NCBI GenBank assembly: GCA_001664505.1
Contig: CP011806.1
Coordinates: 1,765,528 to 1,829,527 of the forward strand
Origin: Acidobacteria bacterium Mor1
Lineage (GTDB): Bacteria > Acidobacteriota > Polarisedimenticolia > Polarisedimenticolales > Polarisedimenticolaceae
Length of the DNA: 64,000 nucleotides
Reading direction: 5' to 3'
The notes below the pieces were generated by a model. It was given only the letters and a program-made list of their open reading frames with translations, ran no database searches and was not told the DNA's origin. The position numbers were made by a program, and so were the translations under genes. Shown here piece after piece: positions 32,994 to 33,566 of the stretch (position 1 is the stretch's first letter; the number at the start of each line of letters is the position of its first letter).

Positions 32994-33182
32994 GATTGAG
33001 CCTTCTTGCTATGGCTGGAATGAGGGTTGCTCAGGGAACGCGCAGATTATCACGGCCCACGCCCGCGACCACGGTGGCCCTCCGGGCGGAGCCGGCGGCG
33101 GCACTCTGCGCTGAAAACGAAAGCACGGTCACCCTTTTTGCGTGTACTGCGCTACGATCAAAGCGGTTCACCCGAGGAGACC

Positions 33183-33566
33183 ATGGACGAGCAACAGGCA
33201 CGGACCACCCTGGAGTCTCGCGTCGCCGACGGCGCCAGACTGGCGATCGGCTCCGAGTCCGACTGGGCCAGCATCAAGCGGCTGCTGGAACGCTGCCTCC
33301 TGGCGGGGATCCCGGCGATGCTCGCCGACTGCCCCGGCGGCGGCTGACGGACCAAGGGGCGCCTCCTGGTCCAGGAGGCTGATGCACCGAAGCTGGCCAC
33401 GTTGCTTCGAGGCGACTGGGAAGCAGAGCTGGAACGAAGCGGTCTCGGCTTCGTCGCCCCCAAGGAGCCCGTGGGCTCGGGGGACGGAGTGCCCTGCCCC
33501 GCCTGCGGCACCAATGCCCCGCTGGTAGACGGCGCCTGCAGCGACTGCGGGTTGACCCTCGGTTGA
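33183..33566 (+). CDS. DUF2007-like zinc-ribbon selenoprotein
   Basis: With TGA 33345-33347 read as selenocysteine, this is a 127-residue protein. ATG 33183 follows GAGGAGA and a TACGAT -10-like hexamer (33154-33159). The N-terminal part resembles DUF2007: a helix ending in LLERCLLAGIPAMLADC, then PGGG-Sec55-RTKGRLLVQEADAPKLATLL, where the strand and helix after the UGA complete the small alpha/beta domain. A zinc ribbon closes the protein (C105-P-A-C108 and C119-S-D-C122). Cys50 and Sec55 form a CxxxxU pair. Coding quality continues unchanged past the UGA to a normal TGA stop, and a perfect SECIS-like hairpin follows the UGA. A redox or metal-related role is inference. I know no named bacterial selenoprotein family of this architecture. 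Confidence 0.85.
33361..33379 (+). promoter_or_regulatory. Bacterial SECIS-like hairpin for UGA 33345
   Basis: GCCTCCT (33361-33367) pairs perfectly with AGGAGGC (33373-33379) around the loop GGTCC. The loop begins 20 nt after the UGA and has G at positions 1 and 2. The GGUC in the loop is the same tetranucleotide found in the SelB-binding loop of the E. coli fdhF SECIS. It is an uninterrupted dyad inside coding sequence, which is unusual unless selected. Confidence 0.8.

Follow-up and report, generated by a model that had tools for sequence, protein, structure and literature searches.

A predicted zinc-ribbon selenoprotein in an acidobacterial genome and its Myxococcota-centred subfamily, relatives of protein DG

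In a 64,000-nucleotide stretch of the Acidobacteria bacterium Mor1 genome (contig CP011806.1, positions 1,765,528 to 1,829,527; the whole stretch is referred to as the window), a small gene carries an in-frame TGA at codon 55, which we predict with high confidence to be decoded as selenocysteine (Sec). The original prediction of a bacterial selenoprotein at this locus rested on the in-frame TGA, a GAGGAG ribosome-binding site, a hairpin after the TGA and a CPAC...CSDC zinc ribbon, all of which are present in the sequence as described. The locus is laid out as follows:

33150-33155, + strand: TACGAT, proposed from reading the sequence as a possible -10 element; the promoter would be monocistronic
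33174-33179, + strand: ribosome-binding site GAGGAG, 3 nt before the ATG, read directly
33183-33566, + strand: predicted selenoprotein gene, ATG at 33183, 127 codons with an in-frame Sec codon, then a TGA stop at 33564-33566
33240-33437, + strand: beta-alpha-beta-beta-alpha domain, residues 20-85, from an AlphaFold2 model
33345-33347, + strand: predicted TGA Sec codon, residue 55; at this column 20 genomes have TGA and the cysteine homologues TGC
33361-33379, + strand: putative selenocysteine insertion sequence (SECIS) hairpin GCCUCCU-GGUCC-AGGAGGC, from pairing across Sec genes and the core of the stem found by RNAalifold
33495-33554, + strand: C-terminal zinc ribbon CPAC...CSDCG (Cys105, Cys108, Cys119 and Cys122), from cysteine conservation

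A first scan of genome contigs found six relatives, with TGA at the window's column in L008-L012 and TGC in L013. Further TGA and cysteine genes came from a profile scan of 331 genomes of the phylum to which the genome of L009 belongs (Myxococcota), and a scan with the NCBIfam family model NF049953 contributed L093 plus more cysteine relatives. The analysed set holds 20 Sec genes in 20 genomes (the window and 19 others, mostly Myxococcota) and at least seven cysteine homologues. Position 55 is Sec or cysteine in 27/27 aligned members, as the original prediction requires, and among the close homologues aligned, cysteine (TGC) is the sole alternative to TGA at this column. A sequencing or assembly error that turned TGC or TGG into TGA would be a simple account, since a single residue separates the gene from a normal frame. 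However, TGA stands at the same column in 19 independent genomes, and this explanation is therefore excluded for all practical purposes.

The same comparison bears on the reading of the UGA as an ordinary stop, by which the product would be a peptide of 54 residues and the homology beyond the UGA would reflect a decaying or separately started frame. UGA does act as a stop elsewhere in this genome, the end of this very gene included. Nevertheless, the half downstream of the UGA is under purifying selection (nonsynonymous and synonymous divergence, dN 0.22 and dS 1.11, between the window gene and its closest homologue, L045), the TGA is shared by 20 genomes, the cysteine homologues are one continuous reading frame, and the hairpin is retained only in TGA genes; we regard termination at codon 55 as very improbable.

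All 20 Sec genes have a hairpin of 6-8 bp at an equal distance after the UGA, and the cysteine genes lack it. In the window gene 13 nt separate it from the UGA. It has a G in its apical loop, a feature by which bacterial SECIS elements are recognised. In a gap-free alignment of the 20 Sec genes (A2), columns 18-23 and 29-34 are paired in 92.5% of cells, compared to a mean of 84.7 in shuffled alignments, none of which (0/500) scored as high, and RNAalifold, unaided, recovered the core of the same stem. The equivalent columns of seven cysteine genes are paired in 33% of cells, like the shuffles. The outer pair, 18-34, varies among C-G, G-C, U-G and G-U, with six two-sided changes, and 20/20 genes use CTC for the first leucine in the stem, a codon that makes up 33% of leucine codons in four long genes of the window. 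The distant Sec genes L057 and L059 encode LAVAS in place of LLVxE after the Sec, yet by eye they form GCUCGC-GGUC-GCGAGC, a 6-bp stem around GGUC in a new register; their stem is missed by the common-register pair counts because the 3' arm has moved by one base. When single genes are recoded synonymously, a fraction of 0.015-0.153 of the recodings gives a hairpin as stable as the natural one. The perfect 7-bp hairpin named in the original prediction is thus present and conserved in the Sec homologues, although by itself it is weak evidence, because 130/1395 TGA triplets of the window (9%) precede a perfectly paired stem of at least 7 bp in a similar zone. It is the conservation of both the TGA column and the hairpin in 20/20 Sec homologues that lifts the pairing above chance, although the relatedness of the genes makes these counts non-independent.

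The selenium machinery, which the original prediction had proposed to look for as selA, selB, selC and selD, is complete in the same genome. It includes a tRNA-Sec with anticodon TCA (C1:1275848), a SelB of 621 aa, a SelA match of 442.6 bits, and a SelD (L110, C1:2910488-2911429, minus strand) that reads SCAGUASKMGP through an in-frame TGA. This SelD is itself a predicted selenoprotein, an unrelated enzyme of the same genome whose Sec would likewise be encoded by UGA. SelA or SelB was found in 20/20 Sec genomes: SelB is present in 17/19 genomes tested, the window's own included, and is missing in G393 and G358, both of which have SelA, as does G440, which lay outside the SelB test. Half of the Myxococcota-set genomes with the cysteine form only (4/8) are without a full SelA or SelB; G173, G143 and G108 have neither, G374 has only a partial SelA-like match, and G438, from this cysteine-only set, entered the SelA test only. 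The difference between Sec and cysteine-only genomes gives a Fisher p of 0.003 with relatedness ignored. Near a selB gene, L024:1905-3959 encodes a subtilase-like protein that ends in a long run of SDGALWSDSALWSD repeats.

We modelled the protein with AlphaFold2 (mean predicted local distance difference test score, pLDDT, 90.6; predicted template modelling score, pTM, 0.68). The small domain is modelled with confidence, in the order helix, strand 20-27, helix 28-40, strand 45-48, strand 58-64 and helix 65-85, and residue 55 falls in the Gly-rich loop that joins strand 45-48 to strand 58-64. All four ribbon cysteines are invariant in 27/27 members, and the ribbon is probably structural. Cys38 is kept in 18/20 Sec members. 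A Cys50-PGGG-Sec55 redox centre had also been proposed; the motif is present in the window protein, but a cysteine aligns at the Cys50 column in only 7/20 Sec members, and we rejected the pair on that ground.

Several observations weigh against selenocysteine decoding or leave its context bare. Single-gene hairpins are only moderately stronger than their synonymous recodings, and the conserved LLVxE peptide itself contributes to hairpin formation. The inner pairs of the stem are mostly invariant, so that covariation comes down to one outer pair and the re-registering in L057 and L059. Gene neighbourhoods of the relatives share no common partner except prfC (RF3) in L008 and L009, and the comparison found no conserved operon partner pointing to a pathway. 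Nor was there a clear match to a solved fold: a Foldseek search of solved folds gave none under E 0.001, and the best VIA-align result (Z 7.8 across 57 residues, to type III secretion ring domains) is within the range that the tool calls common. In addition, an Rfam scan of the window and a tblastn search against plasmids gave no match.

Taken with the column and hairpin conservation, we propose that SelB bearing Sec-tRNA(Sec) would bind the hairpin and that Sec would be put in at codon 55, the second UGA of the gene serving for normal termination. The predicted product would be a cytosolic protein of 127 residues, in which a mobile Gly-rich loop of a small alpha/beta domain carries the Sec and the structural zinc ribbon comes after that domain. 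Its likeliest activity would be selenol-based, either thiol/disulfide or peroxide chemistry or the capture of soft metals. We consider a selenol redox or metal role likely in this general form, with no specific substrate claimed.

The original prediction knew of no named family with this architecture, and on this point it needs some correction. NF049953, named "zinc ribbon-containing (seleno)protein DG", matched 7/7 members first scanned (best E 3.1e-15), and protein DG was predicted as a selenoprotein by deep-Sep in Desulfosediminicola in 2025 (PMC12013277). The two share a related core domain, a C-terminal zinc ribbon, a Gly/Cys-rich Sec region and both Sec and cysteine forms, and a bacterial SECIS-like hairpin has been reported for DG, as in the window group. 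The window gene could therefore be taken for a plain protein DG member, a diverged orthologue new only in its host, given that all seven match NF049953 and that its name denotes a (seleno)protein with a zinc ribbon. In the tree, moreover, L057 and L059, which have Sec, group with DG-like cysteine proteins L071 and L061 (support 99/98), and L059 scores higher on the profile (about 75-79 bits). This we think unlikely, because the window protein scores 31.5 bits (E 1.5e-7) against a curated cut-off of 130 bits, which nothing exceeded in a scan of 379 Myxococcota genomes. Furthermore, it aligns to positions 50-171 of the 172-position profile and lacks the N-terminal segment 1-49, which forms a ribbon in the DG-like proteins of this set.

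The position of the Sec probably differs as well. Substitution probes of a relative indicate that the DG profile prefers G-C-C-G-P-K from -2 to +3 of the window's Sec column (the K slightly), its two cysteines falling on that column and the one before. As the DG motif is given as GUxG in a 2026 review (PMC13188914), the DG Sec would fall on the earlier of these cysteines, so that it probably lies one residue before the Sec of the window family, whose motif is GURT in the window and GUGT in many other members. Since L057 and L059 carry Sec at the window's column among DG-like cysteine proteins, the superfamily is a mixture of Sec and cysteine forms.

For DUF2007, to which the original prediction had likened the core domain, the likeness is limited to a small alpha/beta domain. 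PF09413 gave weak matches in 3/27 members (best E 0.0019) and none to the window protein, which did not reach the Pfam cut-off, and a Pfam search of that protein returned sub-threshold matches only; the zinc ribbon proposed alongside holds. We know of no Sec in DUF2007. A literature search on zinc-ribbon selenoproteins found no paper.

Therefore, because NF049953 does match, though far below its cut-off, we classify the window group as a predicted new Sec subfamily within the NF049953 superfamily, Myxococcota-centred and with Sec and cysteine forms, rather than the wholly new type of selenoprotein that was first proposed. DG is known from Desulfosediminicola, whereas the window group comes from Myxococcota and one acidobacterial genome. 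In a sample of 396 genomes from its own phylum, the Sec form occurs in this genome only, and the closest others are cysteine proteins with an extra N-terminal ribbon. One paralogue in the same genome (L031, C1:5195473-5195808) has an N-terminal ribbon, the core domain and a C-terminal ribbon and matches the DG profile at 1.3e-6; it has no TGA, and no cysteine was seen in the region corresponding to the Sec loop.

In the tree, the window protein groups with proteins of Myxococcota-set genomes G387, G260 and G351 (support 97/96), and the Sec/Cys labels require 2 changes, compared to 10.4 after shuffling. This placement, together with the distribution, suggests that the acidobacterium possibly acquired the gene from Myxococcota by horizontal transfer. 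We see about an even chance for a fuller account, in which the group is a separate, unnamed subfamily with its Sec at another residue of the fold it shares with DG, Sec evolved on more than one occasion, at neighbouring sites of one small zinc-ribbon scaffold, and the acidobacterium received a UGA gene from Myxococcota that would work there because the Sec machinery was already present.

Two features of the gene surroundings were also recorded. In 15/22 homologue genes (L008, L009, L011, L012, L042, L044, L046, L047, L050, L051, L054, L057, L093, L049 and L094), compared to 1.8% in the background, the ATG is preceded at 12-15 nt by a -10-like CTANNNT or GTANNNT, and this placement suggests leaderless or very short-leader transcripts of the gene in Myxococcota; the TACGAT of the window gene lies further upstream and is accompanied by a ribosome site. 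In two relatives the Sec gene is followed by a gene identified by eye as prfC, for peptide chain release factor 3 (L008:6134-7750 and L009:5984-7594), a proximity that may be only shared ancestry.

Our analysis adds a well-supported predicted selenoprotein subfamily for Myxococcota and, probably, Acidobacteriota, two phyla that go unmentioned in the text of two recent reviews of prokaryotic selenoproteins. Such UGA-containing genes usually enter annotations, wrongly, as truncated proteins. In this family the sequence after the Sec (LLVxE or LAVAS) appears to be shaped by the SECIS RNA, and its relation to DG is perhaps a case of Sec shifted by one residue within one scaffold.
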